From assembly GCF_000311825.1 (NCBI RefSeq), contig NZ_HE978568.1, forward strand, positions 130,657-194,656: a stretch of DNA of 64,000 bases, given 5' to 3'. The stretch comes from Peptoniphilus grossensis ph5 (GTDB lineage: Bacteria > Bacillota > Clostridia > Tissierellales > Peptoniphilaceae). Made by a program: the position numbers and the translations under genes. The notes beneath the pieces were generated by a model, which was not told the origin of the DNA, searched no databases, and was given only the letters and a program-made list of their open reading frames with translations. Shown piece after piece: positions 577-45,397 of this stretch. How positions within the stretch are numbered: the first letter of the stretch is position 1; each line of letters starts with the position of its first letter.

Positions 577-604
577 TTGAAAATTATTTAATTAGTGATA
601 TTAT
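577..604 (+). promoter_or_regulatory. Promoter for the crRNA-like phage RNA
   Basis: TTGAAA (577-582), a 16-bp spacer and TATTAT (599-604), preceded by TG at the extended -10 position. Predicted start of transcription is about 611. It points into the degenerate-repeat RNA. Confidence 0.55.
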
Positions 605-610
605 TAAATT

Positions 611-703
611 AATATCAGTTGTACTGAGTGGATTGAAAAAGAAAATATAAAAAGACATAGCTAATATGTCAAAGAAAGAGCTGCATCTTCACAGCTCTTT
701 TTT
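611..703 (+). ncRNA. Solitary degenerate CRISPR repeat RNA (candidate RNA anti-CRISPR)
   Basis: The transcript would open with a small hairpin TCAGT-TGT-ACTGA (615-627), then GTGGATTGAAAAA (628-640). Its first 11 bases are identical to the 3' end of the host type I-C repeat in the crRNA sense, which is the region left as the crRNA 5' handle after Cas5c cleavage. A short A-rich guide-like stretch follows, then a GACATA/TATGTC hairpin (654-670) and a strong terminator (678-703). Own promoter, one repeat unit, no second canonical repeat. This matches the description of solitary repeat units used as RNA anti-CRISPRs, and equally of CreR-type mini-CRISPRs. It resembles the host candidate at 42752-42830 even outside the handle (ATTAATAT before, GAAAAA after). 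Function is inference. Confidence 0.55.
675..703 (+). terminator. Rho-independent terminator
   Basis: Stem AAAGAGCTG (675-683) and CAGCTCTTT (692-700) with an 8-nt loop, followed by T residues to 703. On the minus strand the stem is followed by a less perfect T-rich stretch, so it may also stop the gene at 711-1013 and limit read-through into the distal CRISPR spacers. Confidence 0.8.
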
Positions 704-2423: not shown

Positions 2424-3670
2424 TTTTCCACCTCTCTTTGCTTATCATATCTTCTTATCATTGATATAACCTGTTCACGGGTACAAACACCACCAGGGTT
2501 ACTTCCGTCAGTAATTCCTTTTTCCTTGCCCCATTCCCAGTCTTCCTTAGCCCAATCTGATGGGACTGTGTTATCTCTAGTCACGATTTTTCCCACTCCT
2601 TTGTCGTATTGTTGCAAGCCTAATCTCTCTATAAGTTGAATTAATTTATGGCCATAATTTAAATCTGTAGCATATCCACACTCTCTAAGAGCAAGTGCTT
2701 GCGTTTTATAATTTTTAGCTTCTAAGACTTTTCTATAATTTTCCCTTCTCCAAGGTGTTGATACAAAAAACTTATCGTGATCTTTAATAGATTCTAAAAA
2801 GGATCCATACTTTCTAAAGACAGCGGTAATTGTATAGACCTCTCCATTTGGTTTTTGTTCCTTGGTTTGTTTCTTGTAGACTTCCCCAGTCCAGTCCTTA
2901 GATGCCTTAATTCCAAATAAATTACATGCTTCCTTCGCAAGTGAGGACTTACCCCAGTTACTTTCTAAGATAGCTTGTGCAATAGTCACAGACGGCAAAA
3001 TATTAAGTTTTTGTCCTTTAAGGCTATCAACTATAGACTGGATAAATTTTTCTTCAGTAAGTTCAACTGGTGGATTTTTAACTTCTCCAGTTTTTTCTGC
3101 AAGTCCGTAAAACTCTGCTATGGCTTTTGCTACTGCATTTGCTGTCTTATCAAGATTTTTACGATAAATAGTCGCATCTTGTAAATTGTCATGAAAAACA
3201 TGCTCAACTATCATATTTTTCTTAGCATAACCAAGTCTTAATATTCCATAATAATTAGATCCATTGTTATTTCGCCTGTATTTTGTGCCACGATTTGGAG
3301 TACCTAAAGCACTAGACACATAAGCACAAATCTTATCCCCAAGGACCTTGCAAGACTCCTTAGGGTTTGTAGAGTCCCAGACTTCCACACCTCTTACATT
3401 GCCTCCAGCCGCATTACTGTGGACTGATAAAAGCAAGTCATAACCTCTTGCCATAAATCCTCTGGTTTTAAGACTTGGATTTTGCCAGATATCGCTTCTA
3501 GTCATATCAACTTTAAAACCATACTTCTCAAGTGCAGGCTTTAAAAAATCCCTAGCATAGATAAAGTTGCAATCTCCCTCATTACAATAGGGTAGATTAT
3601 CAACCTGTTTAAAACCTCTGTTATGTGCAGGTCCACCGCCATGTCCAGGGTCTAGCATTATTTTTATCAT
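2420..3670 (-). CDS. Bifunctional endolysin: amidase_3 plus glucosaminidase
   Basis: 416 residues. N-terminal zinc amidase (about 1-190) begins IKIMLDPGHGGG and has SVHSNA and IVEH metal and catalytic motifs; it cuts the MurNAc-L-Ala bond. A FlgJ/glucosaminidase-like domain follows (about 205-350: AQAILESNWGKSSLA, NLFGIKA). The C-terminal DWAKEDWEWGKEKGIT segment looks like half an SLH or wall-binding repeat. It sits between XhlA-like and holin genes, and releases virions at lysis. The segment 3157-3192 is matched at 28/36 by the newest CRISPR spacer with a TTC PAM. Confidence 0.92.
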   Translation of the reverse strand: MIKIMLDPGHGGGPAHNRGFKQVDNLPYCNEGDCNFIYARDFLKPALEKYGFKVDMTRSDIWQNPSLKTRGFMARGYDLLLSVHSNAAGGNVRGVEVWDSTNPKESCKVLGDKICAYVSSALGTPNRGTKYRRNNNGSNYYGILRLGYAKKNMIVEHVFHDNLQDATIYRKNLDKTANAVAKAIAEFYGLAEKTGEVKNPPVELTEEKFIQSIVDSLKGQKLNILPSVTIAQAILESNWGKSSLAKEACNLFGIKASKDWTGEVYKKQTKEQKPNGEVYTITAVFRKYGSFLESIKDHDKFFVSTPWRRENYRKVLEAKNYKTQALALRECGYATDLNYGHKLIQLIERLGLQQYDKGVGKIVTRDNTVPSDWAKEDWEWGKEKGITDGSNPGGVCTREQVISMIRRYDKQREVEK

Positions 3671-18597: not shown

Positions 18598-19813
18598 CTT
18601 TCTTGTAAGCTTTTCCTATATCATCAATTGGCACATAAGTACCATTAACCATAAGGACATCTCCACCATCAATCTTTGGCATACCAGAGTAAGCCCTTGC
18701 TTCGTTTGGAGTATAAATTCCACCACTTACATACTTTTGCAGAGCCTCTGCTTGTGATTTCAAGTCTCCTCTTAGAATAGTCGCTACGTTAAATTCAGTG
18801 TGTACTCCCTTATTGATTTCATCTTCAAATAAAAGTTTGTAGTCAAATTCTTCTTCGTATTTTTTGAGGATAACTAGGAGTGTGTCAATTAAAAAAGTCA
18901 AGTTTTGCATCTCTGATGAGTTGTAACTTGACTTGTCATAGTTATTTAATTGGTTTGGTTTTATTCCAAATGCGGCGGCTATTTGTAAGCCTGTAAACTT
19001 CCTAAGTTCAAAAAATTGTGCATCTGTAAGTTTGATGTCTAGTGGAGTAAGTTTCATTCCTAGTGGTATTGGCACTATGTTCCCGTTGTCCTTATCCCTT
19101 ACAAATTCTGTTATAGTCCTTACAAGTTCCTTTTTCTTTTCCTTGTTAAGTTCCCCAGTGTATTCAAGGATTGCATTGGCAGTAAGCCCTCTTGAGTATA
19201 AGTCATTGAGATACTTTTGTGCTTCTATGGATCCCCTTATAGTCCCTGCAAGTTCCTCTGCAATTGATGTTCCCACTATTCCATCTCGTGACAGTCCACC
19301 CTTTAAGTGGATAATTTCCTTGTCTTGATAGTAGTAGTCTCTACCCTTATCAGTGTATTTGTAATAATACTTGGTCACTTGACTTATGATATGTCCATCG
19401 TCAACAACTACTTTAACCTTTCTAGGGTCTAGTGGATGGAGTGCCACTCTTTTATTGTCCCTTGTTTCTATCAATGCATAGGCATTTCCATAGTGGTTTC
19501 GGTTAAATTCCATAAGCGTTTTAAAGTCTGTGGGACTCATAAAGGGATTAGGTCTTACTTTTAAGAGATAGTTTATATCGCTATCAGTAATTTTTATTCC
19601 CTCTCCATCCTTAAGGTGGATTGATAACTTACCTATGGACTCACTAAGGATCTTTAGGCAAATGTAATAAGTTATTTCTGATGTATTTGCCTTTGTGATT
19701 AGACTTTCGATGTTTTCCCCTGTGCTGATGTTTATGGTTTCCCAGCCATCAGACTCATTTTTCCAACTAAAGGTGTTTTTAACTGCTCTTCCAAAGTTTT
19801 TAATTATTCCCAT
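18578..19813 (-). CDS. Portal protein
   Basis: 411 residues from ATG 19811-19813 (GAAGGCGGTGAAGAAG upstream). HK97-type portal: NPFMSPTDFKTLMEFNRNHY, QIAAAFGIKPNQLN, GMPKIDGGDVLMVNGTYVPI. Ring for DNA entry and exit. Overlaps the terminase stop by 14 nt. Confidence 0.92.
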   Translation of the reverse strand: MGIIKNFGRAVKNTFSWKNESDGWETINISTGENIESLITKANTSEITYYICLKILSESIGKLSIHLKDGEGIKITDSDINYLLKVRPNPFMSPTDFKTLMEFNRNHYGNAYALIETRDNKRVALHPLDPRKVKVVVDDGHIISQVTKYYYKYTDKGRDYYYQDKEIIHLKGGLSRDGIVGTSIAEELAGTIRGSIEAQKYLNDLYSRGLTANAILEYTGELNKEKKKELVRTITEFVRDKDNGNIVPIPLGMKLTPLDIKLTDAQFFELRKFTGLQIAAAFGIKPNQLNNYDKSSYNSSEMQNLTFLIDTLLVILKKYEEEFDYKLLFEDEINKGVHTEFNVATILRGDLKSQAEALQKYVSGGIYTPNEARAYSGMPKIDGGDVLMVNGTYVPIDDIGKAYKKGGEKSD

Positions 19814-34859: not shown

Positions 34860-36359
34860 ATGAAAACTGCTTACGCTTACGCTAGGTTTTCTAGTGGAAA
34901 TCAAAAAGAAGAGTCTATTGAGGAACAGTTTTATGAAATAAAAAGATACGCAGAGTCCGAAGGAATAATGATTAAAAAATATTACTCCGACGAAGCTATA
35001 AGTGGTCTTACAAATGGTAGAGATCAATTCCGAGAAATGATAAATGAAATCTTAAATCATGGAGGAATAGATTATGTCATTGTATATAAAGTAGAAAGGT
35101 TTAGTAGAAACAAATATCAATCTGCAATCTATAAAGAAAAGTTATCCCGTAGAGGAGTAAAAGTTTTATATGCTGCCCAAAGACTTTCTGACACCCCAGA
35201 AGGTGGGCTTATGGAAGGTATTTTAGAGAGTTTTGCCCAATATTACTCTGAAAATTTAAGCGTAGATACACGACGTGGACAATATTATAATGCCAGGAAG
35301 GGCTTATTTAATGGTGGAATCCCACCACTAGGTTACTCTATAGATGACGAGAAAAAATATAAAATTGATCCATACGAAGCTACAATAGTAAAATCAATAT
35401 TTGATATGTACTTAGATGGTATGTCTCAATCAGAAATAGCCAGAGAACTTAATAAAAAAGGATATAAAACCAACAGAAAGAGAAACTTTGCCCAAACATC
35501 TATAAGTGGAATTCTAACCAATAAAAAATATATAGGGATCTATGAGCATGGAAGAATACAACTTAAATATAATGTTACTGGTAAAAGAACCCTTGAAGTT
35601 ATGCGACCTGATGACCAAGTTGTAGTAAATTATGATGCAATTCCACCTATTATAGACAAGGAAGTTTTTGAGAGGGTACAAAAAATGATAAAAGATAGAG
35701 CAAATCAAAAAGCAGTTAGACAACATCACGATTATCCACTAAAGGGGCTTATATACTGCGAGTGTGGTCAAAAGATGTATGGCTATACTGATACAAGATA
35801 CCCTAGCAATAGCCGATATCGATGTAAAAAATGTAATAATGCTATAAAAAAAGAAGCCTTAGAAAAATATATTATGTCAGTAGCAAGAAATTACATTTTA
35901 GATAACGCTGATGTTTTAGTTGACAGAATTGAGCAAGAAACAAAAAAAGCATTAGAGTCGCTAGATACCGACAAAAATGCACTTAAAAAAAGGCTTGATG
36001 AAATTGATAAAGAAGAAAATAACTGCGTTGAATATGTAATGTCCTTTGGTGCCAATGACAAAATAAAATCTAAGATAGATGAATTGAATAAAGAAAGAAA
36101 TGAAATTAACAATTTATTAGCATCTACTGGAGGTCCAATAAACATAAAAAAAGAAATTAGAATTTGGATCAATAAAATTAAAAATGATAACTTAGAATTA
36201 AACAAAAAAGAATTTATACAGTTATTGGTTAGAAAGGTTGTAGTTTCAAGGGAGGAAGTGCAAATTTTTTTTAACATATTTGCACGCCCCTCCAACACCA
36301 ACGCCCCCACGAGGGGTGCGACATGGAATGGTATAAAGAGTGCTACAACATCAACATGA
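34860..36359 (+). CDS. Large serine integrase with host-encoded C-terminus
   Basis: 499 residues in the lysogen. Resolvase domain with YARFSSGNQKEESIEEQ (catalytic Ser) and VYKVERFSRNKYQ; recombinase domain GGIPPLGYSIDDEKKY; zinc ribbon YCECGQKM with CKKCNN (~300-330); coiled coil; C-tail. The frame passes through attR: residues after N-A-P are TRGATWNGIKSATTST, coded by the CRISPR repeat and spacer, with TGA at 36357-36359. In the excised phage the gene would instead continue at 473-550. It is responsible for insertion into the CRISPR repeat. Confidence 0.95.
   Translation: MKTAYAYARFSSGNQKEESIEEQFYEIKRYAESEGIMIKKYYSDEAISGLTNGRDQFREMINEILNHGGIDYVIVYKVERFSRNKYQSAIYKEKLSRRGVKVLYAAQRLSDTPEGGLMEGILESFAQYYSENLSVDTRRGQYYNARKGLFNGGIPPLGYSIDDEKKYKIDPYEATIVKSIFDMYLDGMSQSEIARELNKKGYKTNRKRNFAQTSISGILTNKKYIGIYEHGRIQLKYNVTGKRTLEVMRPDDQVVVNYDAIPPIIDKEVFERVQKMIKDRANQKAVRQHHDYPLKGLIYCECGQKMYGYTDTRYPSNSRYRCKKCNNAIKKEALEKYIMSVARNYILDNADVLVDRIEQETKKALESLDTDKNALKKRLDEIDKEENNCVEYVMSFGANDKIKSKIDELNKERNEINNLLASTGGPINIKKEIRIWINKIKNDNLELNKKEFIQLLVRKVVVSREEVQIFFNIFARPSNTNAPTRGATWNGIKSATTST
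36283..36322. other. attR: integrase 3' end joined to CRISPR half repeat
   Basis: Phage arm 36283-36304, core CCCC (36305-36308), then repeat-derived ACGAGGGGTGCGAC (36309-36322). Against the repeat only the first core base differs (C for A). The deduced attP has 22-bp arms around CCCC sharing CACGCC-(C/T)-CTCCA and ACGC in inverted order. Confidence 0.92.
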
Positions 36360-36994
36360 TTTCAATCCACGCACCCACGAGGGGTGCGACTTTACAATTA
36401 TAATAAGCTTAGGGGTCTAATTAGAATTTCAATCCACGCACCCACGAGGGGTGCGACGATTGCTTTTTCTTCTCCGTCATACTCCATGGCATATTTCAAT
36501 CCACGCACCCACGAGGGGTGCGACTTGAGGAACTTCCTGCAAGATTAGACGAGCTAAAATTTCAATCCACGCACCCACGAGGGGTGCGACGCTAAAAAAT
36601 ACGAGATAAATTCTGATGCTAGGGTGATTTCAATCCACGCACCCACGAGGGGTGCGACATGACCTTACATCTTATGCAAAAAGTGAGGATATAATTTCAA
36701 TCCACGCACCCACGAGGGGTGCGACTAGTCGATGTAGGCTTTTACAAAGATTTTTCCATTATTTCAATCCACGCACCCACGAGGGGTGCGACCTTTCAGT
36801 TCCAAAAAAGCTAGTTCAAGTCCTTTATATTTCAATCCACGCACCCACGAGGGGTGCGACAGATTCCAAACCAACTGATGTTACTAATTATATAATTTCA
36901 ATCCACGCACCCACGAGGGGTGCGACTTTTTCTGTATACTGTTGCATCTTGTAAATTGTCGTATTTCAATCCACGCACCCACGAGGGGTGCGAC
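36306..36994 (-). CRISPR. Type I-C CRISPR array, leader-proximal segment (10 spacers)
   Basis: A half repeat to 36322, then spacers at 36323-36358, 36391-36425, 36458-36492, 36525-36558, 36591-36626, 36659-36693, 36726-36760, 36793-36828, 36861-36894 and 36927-36962, separated by ten identical 32-bp repeats, the last at 36963-36994 beside the leader. The newest spacer is 36927-36962. Two spacers clearly resemble resident prophage genes (lysin, holin) and one more does so at a lower level (Rad50-like). Spacer 36591-36626 is a near twin of 285-318 in the distal segment. Confidence 0.98.
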
Positions 36995-37124: not shown

Positions 37125-37418
37125 TTATAAGATTAATAAGTCTTTTTCTGGGTTATAGGAGTCATCTCTTCCAAGAGTTTCCACTCTCCTCTCCCAATTT
37201 TTCCCTAAATTGTAAATTCTAATTGAGTCTTTTTTAGGGTCAATTATTTTTTCTAATTTGTTTTTAATAAGAACTAAATCTGCAGGATAAATATTTAGTT
37301 CGAAAACAGAATTTTGAACTCTTTGTCCGTAATCTAAACAGACTTTTGCAACCTGCCTTAATCGTCTTTTGCCATCACTTGACACTGTTTCTACATCATA
37401 GGTTATTAGTACTTGCAT
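37125..37418 (-). CDS. cas2: CRISPR adaptation protein Cas2
   Basis: 97 residues. MQVLITYDVETVSSDGKRRL with the ferredoxin-fold Asp, and GQRVQNSVFELNIYPADL typical for type I-C Cas2. With Cas1 and Cas4 it inserts new spacers at the leader end. One nt separates it from cas1. Confidence 0.96.
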   Translation of the reverse strand: MQVLITYDVETVSSDGKRRLRQVAKVCLDYGQRVQNSVFELNIYPADLVLIKNKLEKIIDPKKDSIRIYNLGKNWERRVETLGRDDSYNPEKDLLIL

Positions 37419-37419
37419 T

Positions 37420-38451
37420 TTAGCCTCCCATCATAAAAGGTGGATAGGATTCTATATCTCCTCTAAGATACGAATTTAATAACATGGCTTGAACATGGGG
37501 AAGTAGCCCTATTTTTATATTTTCTTCTATAAATGGATGATATATTTCTTCTTGTTCTCTTTTGTTCCAATTTTCTAAAACTATTTGTCTGCCATTATCG
37601 TTTAAAAGTGTGGCGCCATTTTCTTTTACCTCAAAATGATTCTTGTTTATTCTATTTAAGTTTATCATTGATAGCGTAAATTTATCAACTAGAAAGGCTC
37701 TCATTTCTTCTATTAAGTCAAGTGCCATGCTAACCCTTCCCGGCCTATCTGTATGAAAGAACCCTGCATAGGAATCTATACCTACACCTCCAAGGGCTGC
37801 CGCAATATTATTTGTAAGTAGTGAATATAGAAAGGATATTAGGGCGTTGAACCTGTCCATTGGAGGTCTTTTGCTTCTATCTATAAAGAAAAAATCTTCA
37901 CGCTGTTTTATTATTAATTCATCTAAGACCGAAAAGTACTCTCTAGCTATTATTCCTTCTATACCTCTTACACTGTCTTTGTTCTTGCAGTTTTTGATTT
38001 CCAGCATTAAAAGTTTTATGGAATTTATAACTTCTTCTAGTCTTTTGACATCAACTTTTTCTTTATTGTCTAACTTTCCTCTTATTAAGATTTTCCTGGA
38101 ATTATATGCCTTTGCGTAGATTATATTTTTTACAAAATCCAAGGACTCTTCTGACTCTTGCATTTTATATTGTTTCTTCCTTGTGTAAATATTTCCATAA
38201 GATGCTCCAAGAACTCTGCCGCAATACTTTCCATAGGGTGTAAAGAAGGTTATGGCTACATTTTCTTCCATACACATTTTCATTAAATCTGGACTCATGC
38301 CCATATAATTAAAACAAACTATCTGTTTTAATATGTGGATTGGGTATCTTGCCACTGTTTTTGAATCAAGAGTTATAGAAATGTTTCTTCCTTCTTTTCT
38401 AAGATAATAATCTGGATTTGTGACATATAAAGTGTTCAATAGCTTTTTCAT
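37420..38451 (-). CDS. cas1: CRISPR integrase Cas1
   Basis: 343 residues. Active-site Glu in EGIIAREYFSVLDEL, His and Asp in GIDSYAGFFHTDRPGRVSMA and LALDLIEEMR-type helix. Metal-dependent spacer integrase. ATGA overlap with cas4. Confidence 0.97.
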   Translation of the reverse strand: MKKLLNTLYVTNPDYYLRKEGRNISITLDSKTVARYPIHILKQIVCFNYMGMSPDLMKMCMEENVAITFFTPYGKYCGRVLGASYGNIYTRKKQYKMQESEESLDFVKNIIYAKAYNSRKILIRGKLDNKEKVDVKRLEEVINSIKLLMLEIKNCKNKDSVRGIEGIIAREYFSVLDELIIKQREDFFFIDRSKRPPMDRFNALISFLYSLLTNNIAAALGGVGIDSYAGFFHTDRPGRVSMALDLIEEMRAFLVDKFTLSMINLNRINKNHFEVKENGATLLNDNGRQIVLENWNKREQEEIYHPFIEENIKIGLLPHVQAMLLNSYLRGDIESYPPFMMGG

Positions 38452-39101
38452 AATTCTGCCCCATAAATATAGTTATCAACATTTTTAATTTTTTTCGTTA
38501 TCCTTGGGCTACACTCATTATAAAGAGAACACATCTTGCAATTCTTATAATTTTCTGCTCTAGGGACTATTTTTTCTTTATAGTACTGGTGCATCTCTTT
38601 TGCTGCACTTATTGTTAGTTCTCTTAATTCATTTGCGAACTCAACTTTTTCACGAGTATCTGTTTCATTATAATAAATATATCCATAATCAAGTTTTGTA
38701 TTGAAATTTTCTTCCACACAAATTGCCTGTGCCATTAACTGGGCATTGTCATAATTATATTTTTTCTTTTTGCCCCTCTTATATTCTATAATAATTGGCT
38801 GCCATAAGCCCTTTCTATTATTCAACTCAATTCCCTTATCTGATTTATGAAATTCGATTGCATCTAACCTGCCAGAGAGTCCCAGATTTTTGGAACTCAC
38901 TGACATTGCTCTTGATATTATTAAGTCTTTTCTCTTTTCTTTTATAAAGGGTTTATCAACTTTTGTATGAATTACTTGACCTTCCGCTGTAAATGAATTT
39001 TCCGTCCAAATATTTTCAACATGAATTAGAGCCCACTGTCTCTTACAAAACAAAAAGTGTTGAACTCCACTTAACATTAGGTATTCATCTTCAGCATACA
39101 T
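38448..39101 (-). CDS. cas4: Cas4 PAM-selecting nuclease
   Basis: 217 residues. Fe-S cysteines in HFLFCKRQW and CKMCSLYNEC, RecB-like nuclease residues SGRLDAIEFH and IIEYKRGKKKK, and the QxxxY-like AQLMAQAICVEE. Trims prespacers and selects the TTC PAM in type I-C. Confidence 0.95.
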   Translation of the reverse strand: MYAEDEYLMLSGVQHFLFCKRQWALIHVENIWTENSFTAEGQVIHTKVDKPFIKEKRKDLIISRAMSVSSKNLGLSGRLDAIEFHKSDKGIELNNRKGLWQPIIIEYKRGKKKKYNYDNAQLMAQAICVEENFNTKLDYGYIYYNETDTREKVEFANELRELTISAAKEMHQYYKEKIVPRAENYKNCKMCSLYNECSPRITKKIKNVDNYIYGAEL

Positions 39102-39102
39102 T

Positions 39103-39957
39103 TTAAATTCCCTTAATATGTTCTACTTTTAATCCCTTTTCTTCATATTCTTTTAGTTTTTCTTGGTCTAGTCTAATATTGTAATCTTCATATTTTACTT
39201 TTAAGTCTTCTGCGTTAGGAAGGTCGTACTCTAATAGGTCCTTTATCTTTCCACTTGACACATCTCCAACCTTTGATGAGTGATTAAACCAGAATATGTC
39301 TTTGACTTCCATAGAGCCGTCTGGTCTAGCTGACGAAATATCATTAATAAATAAAGTTTTTATACATTCTTTTATAGTTTCCACATCTTTTTCATCGAAG
39401 CCAGTTTTTTCTGCAAAGTATGAATTAATGCTTCCATTAACTACATAAACTCCGTGGTCCACAAAGTGCTTTGTTCCCATTGTATCGGCACTTCTTGACT
39501 TTCCGGCAGTAGGTTCCATACCACTTATAGATTTAGTTATTTGCATTGTAGTTGTTTCTATTGGCTCAAGAGATTTTGCTATAGAAATACTTACTGGTCC
39601 TCTAATTCCAAGAGATCTTTTTTGATAAGTAAAGACTTGACCAAAGGACCTTATATCAATCCATTTTTCATTGGCTCTTTTTTCTACTTCTTCGTCACTA
39701 TCTTCTTTTTTGAAAACTGAATCAAATCTTTTTTCAAGAGATCTAAAGCCGTCGTCACTTCTGTCTAAGGATTTTACAAAGATGTCGTGACCCATGTCTT
39801 GCATCCTATTTCTTAGCTTTCTCTTTAAGCATACATCAGAAATTTCTCCAAATCCTCTATTATCTATTCTTGGCATATTGCCAGTTAGTGGGTCACCATT
39901 AGGATTTGCTCCAGAAACTTCAATTGTAAAAATAAAATCTACTTTATTATTAATCAT
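39103..39957 (-). CDS. cas7: Cas7c (Csd2) Cascade backbone
   Basis: 284 residues. FTIEVSGANPNGDPLTGNMP at the N-terminus is the Csd2 signature; later QITKSISGMEPTAGK-type loop. Polymerises along the crRNA. Confidence 0.95.
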   Translation of the reverse strand: MINNKVDFIFTIEVSGANPNGDPLTGNMPRIDNRGFGEISDVCLKRKLRNRMQDMGHDIFVKSLDRSDDGFRSLEKRFDSVFKKEDSDEEVEKRANEKWIDIRSFGQVFTYQKRSLGIRGPVSISIAKSLEPIETTTMQITKSISGMEPTAGKSRSADTMGTKHFVDHGVYVVNGSINSYFAEKTGFDEKDVETIKECIKTLFINDISSARPDGSMEVKDIFWFNHSSKVGDVSSGKIKDLLEYDLPNAEDLKVKYEDYNIRLDQEKLKEYEEKGLKVEHIKGI

Positions 39958-41884
39958 GTTTTTCCCCGCTTTCTCTTGTAGTTTTTTTGTATAAGTAATC
40001 TAATTCTTTAATTTGTGCTTGATACCCAAATAAAAATCCTGAGTTTAAAGGTTTATTTGTTTCTACCCCATTAAATTTGTAATTTTCCCCTATAAGTTCA
40101 ATTACATCTCCAGCTTCTCTTTTTAAAATATTTCTTATTTCTCTAGTTTTTTCATTTGCATGCAACTTAAAATCATAGGGCTTGATTAAATCGCTAAGTC
40201 TCATGCTCATAGTTGCAGGTTTATTTAAATAACTTGACCAAAGTTTTTCAGCATTTGTTATTCTTTCGTCATCTTTATTGTAAGTAAAAGCTTCAGTTTT
40301 TTCATATATAGCTAGAAGTCTCCCAAATAAATAAGACCTATCTATTTCTTTTTTATCTAACATATTGCTTTTTATTCCCTCCTTTTCCCTCAGAACTGAC
40401 AAGGCACATAACTTTACTTGTAGCCAAAACTTGTCGTAGTTTAATCGGTTTCTAATATTTATTTCTAAAGCTTGAATAATATTTTTAGGCATATCTCTGC
40501 CTTCAATAATCGAAGCTAAAATATTTTTGTATTGATCTGTTACGAATTTCTTTTTTGCTACCTCAAGTCCCTTTTCTCTTTCTACTCCATAAGCTGTTTG
40601 TATAAGCATTAATGGGCTTGGCGTATAATTAGTCTTGCCCTTTTCTTTGGTAAATCTGTACCAATGATATTTGTTTTGCCAAGAAACTAAATTTTCCTTT
40701 AGCCTTGAACTATCCATCTCTCTAAAATATTTTACAGCTACTCTTCCATTGCTGACTTTGTCAATTATAGCCATATAATATTTAGATTCATTAGAAAATA
40801 GAACTTTACCGCTAGTGAAAGACTTGACTATACTTTCTGAAGTTTCATCAGAAATTTTTCTGCCTTCATTTCTATTTCCTTGAGGCAAGTCTTCTCCTGC
40901 TATATCAAAAAGTGGTCCCAAATCAATAATTTCAATTTTCTTTGTTGGGTCTAAATCAGTTTTATTCTGAATATCATCGGAAAACCAACTTAGAGCATAG
41001 GTAAACTCTCCAAGCCACCTAGCTGTATTATCCCCATCAAGTAAAGACTTTGCCATTTGAATTATTTTTTGGCTAGATTCCTTTCCAATTTTTATAGTTT
41101 CATCTGGCTTATCAAATCTGCCTAAAAAATTTTCATTATTTGCAGTAATTTGAGAAATAAGTCTTGCAGAACCTATTAAAGGTTTGTGTTTAAGACATAG
41201 AAAATCTTTTTCTCCACTGATGTTGCAAATAATTTCTTCCGTGTCTTTGTCTCTCGCAAAAATGTCCTTGGTGTACTTAATAAATTTTTCTTGCAAATCC
41301 TTATTTTCAGAAAGGCTTAAATCTTTTTTCCCATCATAATTTTCAACTGCAAATGTTAAAAACACCTTTGAAAAATCTATTGTAACTTTCTTTGCCTTCT
41401 TGTCAGACTTATCCACAAATTCAACATTTTTATCTTTTAGAATTTTATATTCTTTAAATAATTTAGAAAGTATATCTTCGAAAACCTTTTCTTTAATAAT
41501 GTAGTCGTGGATTATTCTTACAAATTCATCTTCATCATAATTTAACCATGCTTCCTGCTGACTAATGTAAGCTTCAGATTTGTTTGTGTTTTCTTGCATT
41601 ACATAATCGAAGTTGTCAAAGAGAGGATGGGGTGCAATTCCACTAGATCTTGCAACAGAATCTTCTGTTACAGGGAAAATTACAATATCGCCATCTTCTA
41701 AAAATTTTGCATCAACTAATTCACTTTTTTTGTTAATCGTAATCTCAACAATGTTTTTGCCATTGGACTTCATAGAATTGTGATAAATCGGAAGAATTAA
41801 ACTGGATTTATCATCTAGGTTCCCAACTAAATTATTCTCAAGTCCATAGTTATAAGAATTTAATAAGGCTGTTAAAAAACTCAA
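39950..41884 (-). CDS. cas8c: Cas8c (Csd1) large subunit
   Basis: 644 residues. Csd1 features: IFPVTEDSVARSSGIAPHPL, DNTARWLGEFTYALSWFSDD, and a C-terminal helical bundle. Recognises the PAM. Internal translation in many I-C systems also yields Cas11 from its 3' part (40 kb region here), which I could not confirm. Overlaps cas7. Confidence 0.95.
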   Translation of the reverse strand: MSFLTALLNSYNYGLENNLVGNLDDKSSLILPIYHNSMKSNGKNIVEITINKKSELVDAKFLEDGDIVIFPVTEDSVARSSGIAPHPLFDNFDYVMQENTNKSEAYISQQEAWLNYDEDEFVRIIHDYIIKEKVFEDILSKLFKEYKILKDKNVEFVDKSDKKAKKVTIDFSKVFLTFAVENYDGKKDLSLSENKDLQEKFIKYTKDIFARDKDTEEIICNISGEKDFLCLKHKPLIGSARLISQITANNENFLGRFDKPDETIKIGKESSQKIIQMAKSLLDGDNTARWLGEFTYALSWFSDDIQNKTDLDPTKKIEIIDLGPLFDIAGEDLPQGNRNEGRKISDETSESIVKSFTSGKVLFSNESKYYMAIIDKVSNGRVAVKYFREMDSSRLKENLVSWQNKYHWYRFTKEKGKTNYTPSPLMLIQTAYGVEREKGLEVAKKKFVTDQYKNILASIIEGRDMPKNIIQALEINIRNRLNYDKFWLQVKLCALSVLREKEGIKSNMLDKKEIDRSYLFGRLLAIYEKTEAFTYNKDDERITNAEKLWSSYLNKPATMSMRLSDLIKPYDFKLHANEKTREIRNILKREAGDVIELIGENYKFNGVETNKPLNSGFLFGYQAQIKELDYLYKKTTRESGEKHD

Positions 41885-41898
41885 TATATCACTTCCAT

Positions 41899-42603
41899 TT
41901 AATAATCTTCTAATTCTTGGTCCACTGTTCTCGTAACTTTAGCCTCTTTGAAAGAATAATTTGAAACCTCATTTATTATTGGGCACTCTTCAGGTTTTTT
42001 AAAAACTATTCTGCCTTTTTTCATATTAATTGGTCCATAAGCTGACTTTAAAGTTTCTCCAGATTTTTCCGGATAAATAAAGCCAACAAACATTAGCCCA
42101 AGTCCTAAATCACTTTCATCATAGTAGCCCTTGTCACTTTCATATTCTTCTTCAGATAAATATTCAATGTAGCCTTGGCACTCAGATACACCTAAAAAGA
42201 TTGGTCTTCTTCCACCTCTTTTTAGAGATCTCTCTGTAATTGCTTCGTGTTTGTTAAAATTTCTATCGCTTTTTAAATCTTCTCTATCTTCATTCCACTC
42301 AAAGTGAAACTTAACATAGTAGCAGGGACTAATTAAATAGGTATATGCCGATAAATCGGACTTATAATCCTTTAATAAGAGTCTCATACCCTGTGTGTAG
42401 GATTCGATTTTATTCATGACTCTAACTTCGTCAATTACATTTGTAATTGTGGGCTTAAAATAATTTGCATCGATTATACCCTTTAAGGCTTCTCTAGTAG
42501 GCGCGGAATAAGAGATCTTTTCTCCCCCGCTCTTACTTTCAGGCGCTGTAAACAATGCTTTAGATCCATAAATTTTTGCGTAAAAATATTTTGATTGATT
42601 CAA
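41899..42603 (-). CDS. cas5: Cas5c (Cas5d) pre-crRNA endonuclease
   Basis: 234 residues from TTG 42601-42603, chosen because AGGAGG is 8 nt upstream; the GTG at 42610-42612 overlaps that site. Type I-C Cas5 replaces Cas6 and cuts the repeat to leave an 11-nt handle. RAMP fold with YYVKFHFEWNEDRED and RRPIFLGVSECQGYIEYL. Any crRNA-like RNA in the window would be processed by this enzyme. Confidence 0.93.
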   Translation of the reverse strand: MNQSKYFYAKIYGSKALFTAPESKSGGEKISYSAPTREALKGIIDANYFKPTITNVIDEVRVMNKIESYTQGMRLLLKDYKSDLSAYTYLISPCYYVKFHFEWNEDREDLKSDRNFNKHEAITERSLKRGGRRPIFLGVSECQGYIEYLSEEEYESDKGYYDESDLGLGLMFVGFIYPEKSGETLKSAYGPINMKKGRIVFKKPEECPIINEVSNYSFKEAKVTRTVDQELEDY

Positions 42604-42675
42604 TATTTTCACCTCCTCTTATTTAAATTTTATTTGAAAAATATTTTATGAAAACGAAATCATCTCTTTGTATTT

Positions 42676-42704
42676 ATGTTAATATTTAACTAAAAATTTG
42701 TCAA
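42676..42704 (-). promoter_or_regulatory. Promoter of the cas5-cas2 operon
   Basis: Minus strand TTGACA (42699-42704), 17 bp, TAACAT (42676-42681). It reads into cas5 through a 70-nt AT-rich leader (42613-42670). The leader contains TTC-ATAAAATAT (42641-42652), which matches the guide start of the phage crRNA-like RNA at 8 of 9 bases. Confidence 0.65.
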
Positions 42705-42751
42705 TGGTTAAATATTATTTTATTAGTTTTATTTTTCTGTTATAATTAATA

Positions 42752-42830
42752 TGTCAGCTGATGGCTGTGGATTGAAAAATGTTTATATTCAACAAAGACC
42801 CAATTATTACTAAAGGGTCTTTTTCTTTTC
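42752..42830 (+). ncRNA. Degenerate solitary CRISPR repeat in the cas gap (CreR-like RNA)
   Basis: Extended -10 TGTTATAAT (42738-42746), then GTCAGC-TGATG-GCTG hairpin (42753-42767) and TGGATTGAAAAA (42767-42778). GTC and GTGGATTGAAA match the array repeat; the stem sequence is changed but still pairs. A 15-nt guide-like stretch (GTTTATATTCAACAA) follows, then the AAGACCC/GGGTCTT stem and T-run ending about 42826. Orientation is opposite to cas genes. Cas-regulating mini-CRISPRs (CreR) occupy similar gaps in other types and direct Cascade to cas promoters. Function here is inference. Confidence 0.55.
42795..42826 (+). terminator. Terminator of the CreR-like RNA and cas3
   Basis: AAGACCC (42795-42801) and GGGTCTT (42815-42821) with a 13-nt loop, followed by T-rich sequence. 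It overlaps closely the end of cas3 on the other strand. Confidence 0.75.
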
Positions 42831-45397
42831 TACATAAAAAATCCTCCAGGATCTTCAAAGTTTACTCCAAATTTTTCATCGTAATACTCTTGAGGTAAAA
42901 TATAAACTTTTCCATCAAGTATCTTGTCGCAAGAACCTAAATCTTTTTCTCGCACCGATACAGTGTGTCTATTTAATTTTTTTAAAATAATTTTAATTTC
43001 TCTTAAGTCCTTTGGGTTATAATTTTTTAAAAATTCCTGCTCTAATTGCCAAATCCTTTCAATTTCTTCCTTAGTTTCAGCATAATTTACAACAGCTGCT
43101 TTCTGGTTTTCTTCTATTAACTCGAAGTCTTTGTATGCTTCTTTAAATGATTGGAATAAATCTATTGGCATTGCTAATTCTGTTGAAACTAAATATCCTT
43201 TAAGCATTACAAATTCTTTAGTTTTTTTCAAAGCATCACATTTATCTTTGTTTTCAGCCAACAATTCTAAAACTGGAGAAAATTTATCCTTTTCCAAATT
43301 TGCATATAATTTTTCAAAATACTCTTTAGTTAAATCTTTAATATCAAAATCATCTTCATAACTTTCAAAGGCAGATTGACAGGCACTCTTTCTTTTATCA
43401 ACTCCCTTTAAGAGAGAAGTTTTTTCTTCAGTATTGTCTAGTTTAATGAGATAGGTATAAGCCTCTTCTTTTTTCCCTTCTCTATTACATCTGCCCATGG
43501 CTTGAATTATGGAATCCATTCCTGATAGAGACCTTATAACCATATCAAAATCCACATCGACTCCTGCTTCAATAAGCTGAGTTGAAATAAGACAAATTTT
43601 ATCTCCATCTTTTAATCTTTTTTTAATCTCATGAATTTTTTTAAGCCTGTCGTTTGCAGTTAAGTTCGTTGTTAAGTAATATAGATCTCCTTCCTCATAA
43701 TCTTCTTGTAACAAATCGTATAATTTTTTTACAACAGACTTTGTGTTTAAAATTATTAAATTTGATTTGTCAGAATTTTCTAATACAAGGTCTTTAACAT
43801 CCTCTATTCCATACATTTTTCTTATGTCGCCATAAATTTTTAATTTTGCCCTTTCAAAGGCTGAAAAATCATAATTTTTATGCTCAATGATGTCTTTATT
43901 TTTGCCCGATAAATCTCCATAAAAAAGTTTATGGCAAAGAGCATCATAATCATTAGTAGGTTGAGTTGCTGTTGAAAGAACAAAATTTGCTCTCATTACA
44001 ATTTTCATAAAATTTAAAACCAAATTTGTCAAATACAAAAATTCTGTTGGAATAGATTGCCACTCGTCCAAAATTATTACAGAATTGATAAAAGATTTAA
44101 ACCTTGTGAGATTTGCTGATTTCCCCTTAAATAGGGAATTGTAAAACTGCACCATTGTAGTTAGAACCACTGGTGATGTCCAGTCGTCTAATAAAAATCT
44201 TTTTCTTGTTATTTCAATTGAATCCTCTTTGTCATCAATTGAAGCTTCTTCTTCATCATCTACTACATTTGAATGATGCTCCAATACATATTTGTCATTA
44301 TTTAAAACTTTTTTCATCTCAGATGCATTTTGTTCCAAAACAGAAAGAAAGGAAGTTACATAAAAAAATCTTTCCTTATTTTGATAATTCATTTGATTTA
44401 TTCCATATCTTAAAGATAAAAGAGTCTTTCCTGCACCCGTTGGCAAATCCAACTTATATATTCCATTTCTATCTTCTTTAGATCTCTTTAATATGTCCTC
44501 TGAAATTTTATTCCTCAAAATGTTTAATTCTCCAAGGGCTTCTCCAAAGGAACTGTATTTTTCATCCACATTTTTTTCAAAATTTTTTATAACTTTTTTT
44601 AAATTATTTTCATCTTCATCAATAATTATTTCACCAAAAGCATTTATTGTATCTTTAATATCTGCTGACTTTAGTATAGAAACTAAAAGTCTTATAAGCA
44701 TTGCCTTGTAAAAATAAACTGCTTCTTCTCTTTTTTCTTGGCTGTAATCGGAAGCTGTCCTTTTCAATTTTTCTAAAACTTTTGCATACTCTAAAAAGCC
44801 CTTGCAAAATATTCTATTTATATTAATTTTTTTAGCTTCAAAAAACTTTTGAGTCTCAATATAAAATTCATCAATGTCAAAACTTTCACTGTCACTAGTT
44901 CCAAACTTATATTCCAATTTTTTGATTTTTTTCATTCTTTCAAGGCTAGTAAAAACATAAGCCATGTCTTCATTTTTTCGAACCATGTCATATTGACCGT
45001 GGTGAGACATTATTGTGTAAACCAAAATATTTGTATAATCACTAAGTTCAGAAATAAGGCTTTTATCAGCCATTAAAATCTCTTTTAATTCTAATATGTA
45101 ATCACTAGAGACATTTTTAAATTCACTTTGAATATCTTTATAAATTTTTAAAACAAATAGTCCACCAAGGCTTGAATGGTCTACCCTTTTGTTTGAATTT
45201 TTTCTAATCTTTTCTTGAAAGTCTATACTTGCTTTACCAATATCGTGAAGTAGACCAAGTAAAAAAGAAATATTTTCCATTTCAACTTTTTCACCAATTT
45301 TTTTGCTCTCGCAAGCTGTGTTAAAAAGATGAGAGTATAAAGTCTGCGCCTTTCTTAAATTTCCCTGATCTATATGGGCATATAATTTATCTAACAT
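42830..45397 (-). CDS. cas3: Cas3 nuclease-helicase
   Basis: 855 residues. N-terminal HD nuclease (GLLHDIGKASIDFQEKI, VDHSSLGG), helicase Walker A LPTGAGKTLLSLRYG, motif II VIILDEWQSIPTEFL, motif III LSTATQPT, motif VI DSIIQAMGRCNREGK. Degrades DNA after Cascade binding. No truncation or frameshift seen, so the interference machinery appears intact. RBS AAGAGGTGCGAA. Confidence 0.97.
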   Translation of the reverse strand: MLDKLYAHIDQGNLRKAQTLYSHLFNTACESKKIGEKVEMENISFLLGLLHDIGKASIDFQEKIRKNSNKRVDHSSLGGLFVLKIYKDIQSEFKNVSSDYILELKEILMADKSLISELSDYTNILVYTIMSHHGQYDMVRKNEDMAYVFTSLERMKKIKKLEYKFGTSDSESFDIDEFYIETQKFFEAKKININRIFCKGFLEYAKVLEKLKRTASDYSQEKREEAVYFYKAMLIRLLVSILKSADIKDTINAFGEIIIDEDENNLKKVIKNFEKNVDEKYSSFGEALGELNILRNKISEDILKRSKEDRNGIYKLDLPTGAGKTLLSLRYGINQMNYQNKERFFYVTSFLSVLEQNASEMKKVLNNDKYVLEHHSNVVDDEEEASIDDKEDSIEITRKRFLLDDWTSPVVLTTMVQFYNSLFKGKSANLTRFKSFINSVIILDEWQSIPTEFLYLTNLVLNFMKIVMRANFVLSTATQPTNDYDALCHKLFYGDLSGKNKDIIEHKNYDFSAFERAKLKIYGDIRKMYGIEDVKDLVLENSDKSNLIILNTKSVVKKLYDLLQEDYEEGDLYYLTTNLTANDRLKKIHEIKKRLKDGDKICLISTQLIEAGVDVDFDMVIRSLSGMDSIIQAMGRCNREGKKEEAYTYLIKLDNTEEKTSLLKGVDKRKSACQSAFESYEDDFDIKDLTKEYFEKLYANLEKDKFSPVLELLAENKDKCDALKKTKEFVMLKGYLVSTELAMPIDLFQSFKEAYKDFELIEENQKAAVVNYAETKEEIERIWQLEQEFLKNYNPKDLREIKIILKKLNRHTVSVREKDLGSCDKILDGKVYILPQEYYDEKFGVNFEDPGGFFM

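Follow-up and report, generated by a model that had tools for sequence, protein, structure and literature searches.

A predicted phage-encoded RNA with a CRISPR repeat handle, a candidate type I-C anti-CRISPR in Peptoniphilus grossensis

What is a piece of CRISPR repeat doing near one end of a phage genome? In Peptoniphilus grossensis ph5, a prophage carries a compact unit at 577-703 of the window (the whole stretch of 64,000 nt analysed here), in which a small hairpin is followed by 11 nt, GTGGATTGAAA, that are identical to the handle region of the host repeat. The original prediction was a solitary CRISPR repeat. The compact arrangement of promoter, hairpin, handle and terminator is indeed present, but it does not contain a complete repeat and has only the 5′ handle region in common with that of the host. 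On the sequence evidence, an RNA anti-CRISPR is the most likely function of the unit.

A prophage inside a type I-C array

The array repeat, ATTTCAATCCACGCACCCACGAGGGGTGCGAC, is found in the window in 16 intact copies and one split copy. The left 18 nt of the split copy are at 455-472, on the attL side, and the right 14 nt at 36309-36322, on the attR side. Joined, the halves give the exact 32-nt repeat, and a prophage of ∼35.8 kb therefore sits inside a CRISPR repeat. Its genes include those for terminase, portal, tape measure and endolysin. Insertion within the repeat was presumably carried out by a large serine integrase (34860-36359, plus strand), the open reading frame of which, as listed, continues through attR into the array. 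Relatives of the integrase are found in one viral contig, at 33%, and in three of 130 genomes of the family, one of them its own and the other two at 36-37%. The prophage separates the leader-distal part of the array from the leader. By eye, CACGCCcCTCCA near attR and TGGAGaGGCGTG near attL resemble inverted attP arms.

The position of the prophage, exactly inside a repeat, invites the idea that the repeat-like unit serves phage integration into CRISPR repeats. CRISPR-repeat-like sequences are said, in a passage of PMC10651486, to mediate viral integration into arrays. The crossover, however, is in CACGCACCC/ACGCCC; the handle block of the unit is 155 nt away, and the GTGGATTGAAA that it shares corresponds to another portion of the repeat. 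For insertion, a serine integrase with its att sites is sufficient, and a role of the unit in integration is highly improbable.

Next to the array is a complete type I-C cas set of seven genes (37125-45397, minus strand): cas3 (42830-45397), cas5c (41899-42612), cas8c (39950-41884), cas7c (39103-39957), cas4 (38448-39101), cas1 (37420-38451) and cas2 (37125-37418), all on the minus strand. The host thus carries a CRISPR system of the subtype that matches the handle of the phage unit. With this full gene set, and with repeat halves that rejoin exactly, the predicted location of the phage within the array of an intact type I-C system is confirmed.

A comparison of the spacers with the window revealed a near match to the prophage for the leader-proximal spacer (36927-36962, minus strand), presumably the newest because it adjoins cas2. 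The imperfect protospacer is in the phage endolysin gene (3157-3192, minus strand), with 28 of 36 positions identical and a 5′ flank of TTTC, which provides a TTC PAM. Among the first 19 positions, 18 are identical and only position 2 differs. The other 16 spacers of the window have best matches of 25/36 or 24/34 and display no comparable TTC-flanked seed match. Near-matching targets in the phage, claimed in the plural, therefore come down to one convincing case among 17 window spacers. Protection would be useful to the phage, since a spacer with a TTC PAM imperfectly matches one of its genes. One spacer in each half of the array (285-318 and 36591-36626) is nearly a copy of the other, a pattern that would fit two separate acquisitions from invaders related to each other.

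Parts of the phage unit

The unit is intergenic and solitary, outside any array and 155 nt from the interrupted repeat. Its predicted promoter (577-604, plus strand), recognized by consensus only, reads TTGAAA-N16-TATTAT with an extended −10 (TGA). The predicted RNA of ∼93 nt (611-703, plus strand) has a start placed about 7 nt past the −10 and an end set by the terminator. A 5-bp hairpin, UCAGU-UGU-ACUGA (615-627), abuts the handle region, with one G between the stem and TGGATTGAAAAA. The handle block, GTGGATTGAAAAA, is at 628-640; it has 11 nt in common with the array repeat (GTGGATTGAAA, exact at 628-638) and 13 nt with a unit in the host cas locus, the host CreR described below. An AT-rich, guide-like stretch of 14 nt, AGAAAATATAAAAA (640-653, counted from 640, the last A of TGGATTGAAAAA), is followed by a second hairpin, GACATA-GCTAA-TATGTC (654-670), whose bases overlap the −35 of a minus-strand promoter. 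A terminator scan places an intrinsic terminator at 672-703, and these parts are all on the plus strand. Promoter, hairpin, handle, guide-like stretch, second hairpin and terminator are thus each found within 577-703 where the original prediction had placed them. The 11-base identity to the repeat handle is exact as well, but it comprises only 11 of the 32 nt of the array repeat, and the stem is dissimilar.

Several chance expectations were determined. Promoters with at least 10/12 consensus positions and TGn number two on both strands of the 35.8-kb prophage, and that of the phage unit is one of them; a looser scan of 440-1100 gave 3 promoter-like sites against 3.7 in shuffles, i.e. no excess. 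Terminator-like sites in a scan of the region number 2, with 0.3 expected. The fold of the unit has z scores of −3.4 and −3.3 (the latter for the predicted RNA) in two runs, equalled by 2 of 200 shuffles in each. The number of occurrences expected on both strands of the prophage is 0.04 for GTGGATTGAAA and 0.006 for GTGGATTGAAAAA; no second exact GTGGATTGAAA is found there, and one site with a single mismatch is at 19616. A perfect hairpin of at least 5 bp ends 0-2 nt upstream of 253 of 10218 prophage positions sampled. The 2.1-Mb genome has exactly two sites of GTGGATTGAAAA, one in the phage unit and one in the host CreR. Hairpin and terminator are both present at four of 81 distinct GTGGATTGAAAA sites from the window and the collected loci, many of which were retrieved by patterns that favour a hairpin or a terminator: two host CreRs (L134 and L140), a CreR-like unit (L157) and the phage unit. 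The hairpin test is strict and fails most CreRs, which have 4-bp or G-U stems. Judged from these figures, the parts of the phage unit do not co-occur by chance.

The minus strand of the region has signals of its own. An opposite promoter, TTGACA-N17-TATATT (644-672), points to attL, and a minus-strand scan detected an AT-rich hairpin followed by T7 (539-575), a candidate terminator of the left phage end. With this promoter and T-tailed hairpin, an antisense RNA that overlaps 611-637 is possible, and it might be a regulator or the real gene. The phage unit could accordingly be an ordinary phage small RNA or a left-end regulatory or terminator region, with a coincidental handle match, or the functional RNA could be on the minus strand and directed toward the host. 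Consistent with this are the AT-rich phage end with its two opposed promoters and terminators (promoter 672-644 and terminator 575-539 on the minus strand), the 11/12 score of the minus promoter, one of four such sites in the prophage, the fact that, in the genus, the 12-base handle motif is also found within genes and at their ends, and the failure to find the unit in related phages. Against it stand the 0.006 expected occurrences of GTGGATTGAAAAA in the prophage and the rarity with which a handle has both a perfect hairpin beside it and a terminator, a combination present at only four of 81 sites, the other three of which are CreR or CreR-like. An ordinary RNA or regulatory region is rather unlikely.

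The neighbouring genes, 711-1013 and 1139-1432, have no match to a Pfam, PHROG or NCBIfam family. The second of these (minus strand), two genes from the phage unit, encodes what appears by eye to be a very acidic protein of 97 amino acids, a candidate protein anti-CRISPR or DNA mimic.

CreR-type units in the cas locus and the host family, and similar layouts in viral contigs

A second unit with the same handle is present between cas3 and cas5 (42741-42826, plus strand). It displays TATAAT, a hairpin, CAGCU-GAU-GGCUG, with 5 bp of which one is a G-U pair, the block GTGGATTGAAAAA at 42767-42779, a guide, ATGTTTATATTCAAC, that starts at 42779, and a terminator at 42794-42826. The handle block is identical to that of the phage unit in 13 of 13 positions. 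The fold is unremarkable (z −1.3, equalled by 20 of 200 shuffles). Besides itself, the best match of the guide in the 64 kb is at 42676-42693 (plus strand), with the flank ATTT, over the −10 of the presumed cas5 promoter, read by eye as TTGACA-17-TAACAT on the minus strand. Type I Cascade leaves every sixth position unpaired. Over the first 15 positions, guide and target mismatch at positions 6 and 12 only. The first 13 non-sixth positions match; shuffled guides (n = 150) reach at most 9 in the cas locus, and none of the 150 reaches 13. By form and target, as read from the sequence, the host unit is a type I-C CreR, and it probably keeps the cas genes in check. CreR is named for type I and type V-A generally in the text available from PMC12737573, and for subtypes I-B, I-E and V-A in that from PMC13131331. 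A CreR of subtype I-C was not found in a literature search whose scope excluded the primary CreR paper (Liu 2023). Subtype I-C is new relative to the subtypes that the available text of PMC13131331 names.

Similar units are found in the host family. A search of 130 family genomes with a CreR model (R1) gave a match at E ≤ 0.5 in 60, and 29 loci (L133-L161) were inspected. The ten best, with at least 26 bits (L133-L142), are counted here as CreR loci; G077:C11:13494, with 28 bits, was left out. In all ten, the guide target is 79-96 nt upstream of the handle. Both position 6 and position 12 are mismatched in all ten as well; these two aside, the match extends over 10-14 positions until it is first interrupted. 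The target is preceded by TTC in seven loci, TTT in two and TAC in one. The guides comprise nine distinct seeds, and the targets change with them, i.e. guide and target co-vary. Among the 19 lower loci (L143-L161), where the guide scan was confined to those that could be anchored plus L146 and L157, only L157 looks CreR-like.

cas3 and cas5 flank the CreR at all five loci checked in these genomes (L025, L027, L034, L095 and L101). Further units beside cas3 are present in more distant genomes, among them L102, which has a strong target nearby, and L112, where the nearby target is weaker; L131 resembles L112 in that its nearby target is weaker than in the others. CreR-like units with nearby targets flanked by CTTC or CTTT were observed at 1513 of L124 (plus strand) and at 6286 of L131 (minus strand, in the count of that strand). 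No match to the host Cas proteins was found within the retrieved stretch of either, and these units may be CreA-type regulators. In L159 (genome G075), two degenerate I-C-like repeats are seen by eye in tandem from 1501, which suggests a mini-CRISPR, a CreA-like unit or the start of an array. As the CreR sequences show, a single hairpin with UGGAUUGAAA, a guide and a terminator, and no second repeat, is a maintained form in the host family.

The phage unit displays this CreR layout of hairpin, handle, guide and terminator, also with no second repeat, although its model score is weak. A covariance model was built from nine CreR-type segments that did not include the phage unit. In the window, it ranks the phage unit second, above all array repeats (18.1 bits, E 0.03). 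In the whole genome, the unit is third, with E 0.97, below G000:C1:235626 (22.6 bits). These scores point to resemblance and are not proof of family membership. An unpaired G separates the phage stem from UGGAUUG, whereas in the CreR and the array repeat the stem abuts UGGAUUG. The stem sequence is unlike that of the CreR and unrelated to that of the array repeat. As far as sequence can tell, the phage unit is closer in form to the host CreR than to the array repeat. The idea that the phage unit and its promoter were copied from the host CreR was considered and dropped. The local alignment of the two looks good (57 of 5000 simple shuffles score as high), yet its score is equalled by 113 of 31922 window segments and by 13 of 191 TATWAT-anchored segments, so that what the two have in common ahead of the handle does not exceed the background.

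Relatives of the phage unit were sought in several collections. Rfam gave no match at the gathering score in the whole window. A blastn search of the phage collection with 440-1100 found none, and with 628-704 it found six records with partial, AT-rich matches only (E ≥ 0.05). In 61 genomes, a DNA search with 480-1100 gave merely short matches of at most 50 bits outside the window. Viral contigs contain one relative of gene 711-1013, in IMGVR_UViG_2895226163_000003. As it is 100% identical, this contig is probably of the same strain and not independent; it holds the sole identical copy of the phage unit, and no independent exact copy was found.

Phages related through the endolysin were also compared. 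GTGGATTGAAA is absent from six of the stretches compared (L071-L076), and none of the five GGATTGAAA sites in the records of L071-L077 has the GTGGATTGAAA block, a hairpin and a terminator. Absence in related phages is nonetheless poorly shown, since three of the stretches (L071, L072 and L073) extend no more than 239-1003 bases beyond the endolysin gene; here, the unit is ∼1.7 kb from that gene.

Pattern scans of viral sequences gave 25, 8 and 12 stretches, of which three were judged by eye to hold units: L044, the phage studied here, L068 and L085. The L068 contig has TTGACG-17-TATAAT (by eye), a hairpin, GTGGATTGAAAAA and a terminator between listed open reading frames, and scores 21 bits with the CreR model. 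L085 has a hairpin, GTGGATTGAAAT and a terminator; its handle falls within a listed open reading frame of 55 amino acids, and the CreR model does not report it at E ≤ 10. The stems of both are different from that of the phage unit. At 3518-4212 of L068 (minus strand), the unit is just upstream of a Cro/CI-type HTH gene, an arrangement reminiscent of anti-CRISPR-associated loci. Another candidate, L096, was rejected, as by eye it seems to be the final part of a coding frame.

Function of the phage unit

The guide-like stretch was compared with possible targets. No PAM-flanked match is present in the cas5 promoter region. In the prophage, nothing is convincing, as the best run there is 8 and 33 of 150 shuffles do as well. 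Targeting of the cas5 promoter or of a phage gene is thus unsupported by the target scans. Two weak candidate sites are in cas8c, at 40821-40838 (minus strand, PAM TTC) and 41465-41482 (plus strand, PAM TTT). Each has nine seed positions and matches guide positions 1-5 and 7-10.

These sites raise the alternative of a CreR-like phage guide, which would steer host Cascade by short complementarity to a DNA target and repress it, possibly cas8c. Genome-wide, two of the six sites of TTY+AGAAANTATA fall in cas8c. Of 150 shuffled guides, 3 have a site of this kind in the cas locus. Two or more are found for 7 of 20000 shuffled guides and, among real AT-rich 16-mers of the prophage, for 5 of 2907. 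The comparison is post hoc, however, and nine positions inside a gene contrast with the 10-14 upstream of cas5 (where checked) in the ten family CreRs. Neither the cas5 promoter nor the prophage has a target of similar quality, and such a guide is unlikely. Of the six genome-wide sites, the one with the longest match, in L078 (14 contiguous bases, TTT), looks by eye like coding sequence and was set aside. In a more elaborate version, the phage would have its own CreR: the copied handle would load host Cascade, the complex would bind the two cas8c sites and silence this gene, which encodes the large subunit of Cascade, and the host CreR would be displaced. Cascade would thus be turned against its own production. 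This version is improbable, as it too is post hoc and its nine positions are fewer than in any of the ten family CreRs.

The preferred interpretation is that the phage unit is a handle-only decoy crRNA, Racr-like in function and CreR-type in form. From the sequence comparisons, its probability is put at roughly one half, slightly on the favourable side. In type I-C systems, the repeat is cleaved by Cas5c, which retains an 11-nt 5′ handle. The phage RNA would start near 611, and its hairpin with UGGAUUGAAAA would mimic the portion of a type I-C repeat at which Cas5c cleaves and to which it stays bound. Cas5c would cut this RNA and retain the 5′ handle, a meaningless AT-rich guide and the stable 3′ hairpin and terminator. 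Because Cas5c retains the 5′ handle, the handle with any sequence should load Cas7 and Cas8c. The three proteins would then assemble on the phage RNA as a blank Cascade, unavailable to real crRNAs. A further prediction is that such a decoy drives the host CreR out of Cascade as well, with a rise in cas5 transcription. We infer transcription of the decoy, its processing by Cas5c, its loading and the resulting inhibition. Passages of PMC10651486 provide precedents: Cas5 processes crRNA in type I-C, RacrIC1 inhibits type I-C, and a crRNA that targets nothing is by itself enough to reduce interference in type I-F.

The closest known systems are the Racr RNAs and solitary repeat units (SRUs). As described in parts of PMC10651486 (Camara-Wilpert 2023), RacrIC1 and its kind are, like the phage unit, phage-encoded and intergenic, with their own promoter and a short, presumably non-coding RNA that resembles part of a repeat. 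That repeat is of the host subtype, as it is here for type I-C. The phage unit differs in that it keeps only the handle, the stem being replaced. SRUFinder, according to the same text, defines an SRU by at least 90% identity over at least 50% of a known repeat and a bit score of at least 41.1. Relative to the host repeat, the phage unit is outside this definition (11 of 32 nt), because only the handle region matches. RacrIF1, as that source describes it, has no 5′ handle and forms a Cas6f-Cas7f filament. The phage unit would supply a 5′ handle, which predicts a complete but blank Cascade.

Two host systems are also alike in part. The phage unit resembles CreR, as outlined in portions of PMC12737573 and PMC13131331, in its solitary, crRNA-like arrangement of promoter, hairpin, handle, short guide and terminator. 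It differs by its location in a virus and its lack of a promoter target; the host CreR here is of type I-C. CreA of CreTA, as portrayed in sections of PMC9458426, is similar in having degenerate repeats outside arrays and a guide RNA that uses Cascade for repression. The phage unit is without a second repeat, and no toxin was recognised among its neighbours by family searches, which are blind to an RNA toxin.

The host CreR finding is independent of the phage unit, as ten genomes show covariation between the guide and its promoter target. The phage unit and a likely host type I-C CreR lie in the same window, which brings attack and regulation together in a single genome. If Cascade is emptied by a decoy, the CreR repression of cas should be relieved too, a counter-response. 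If the decoy interpretation is true, RNA anti-CRISPRs include handle-only units, which would escape searches that use the whole repeat.
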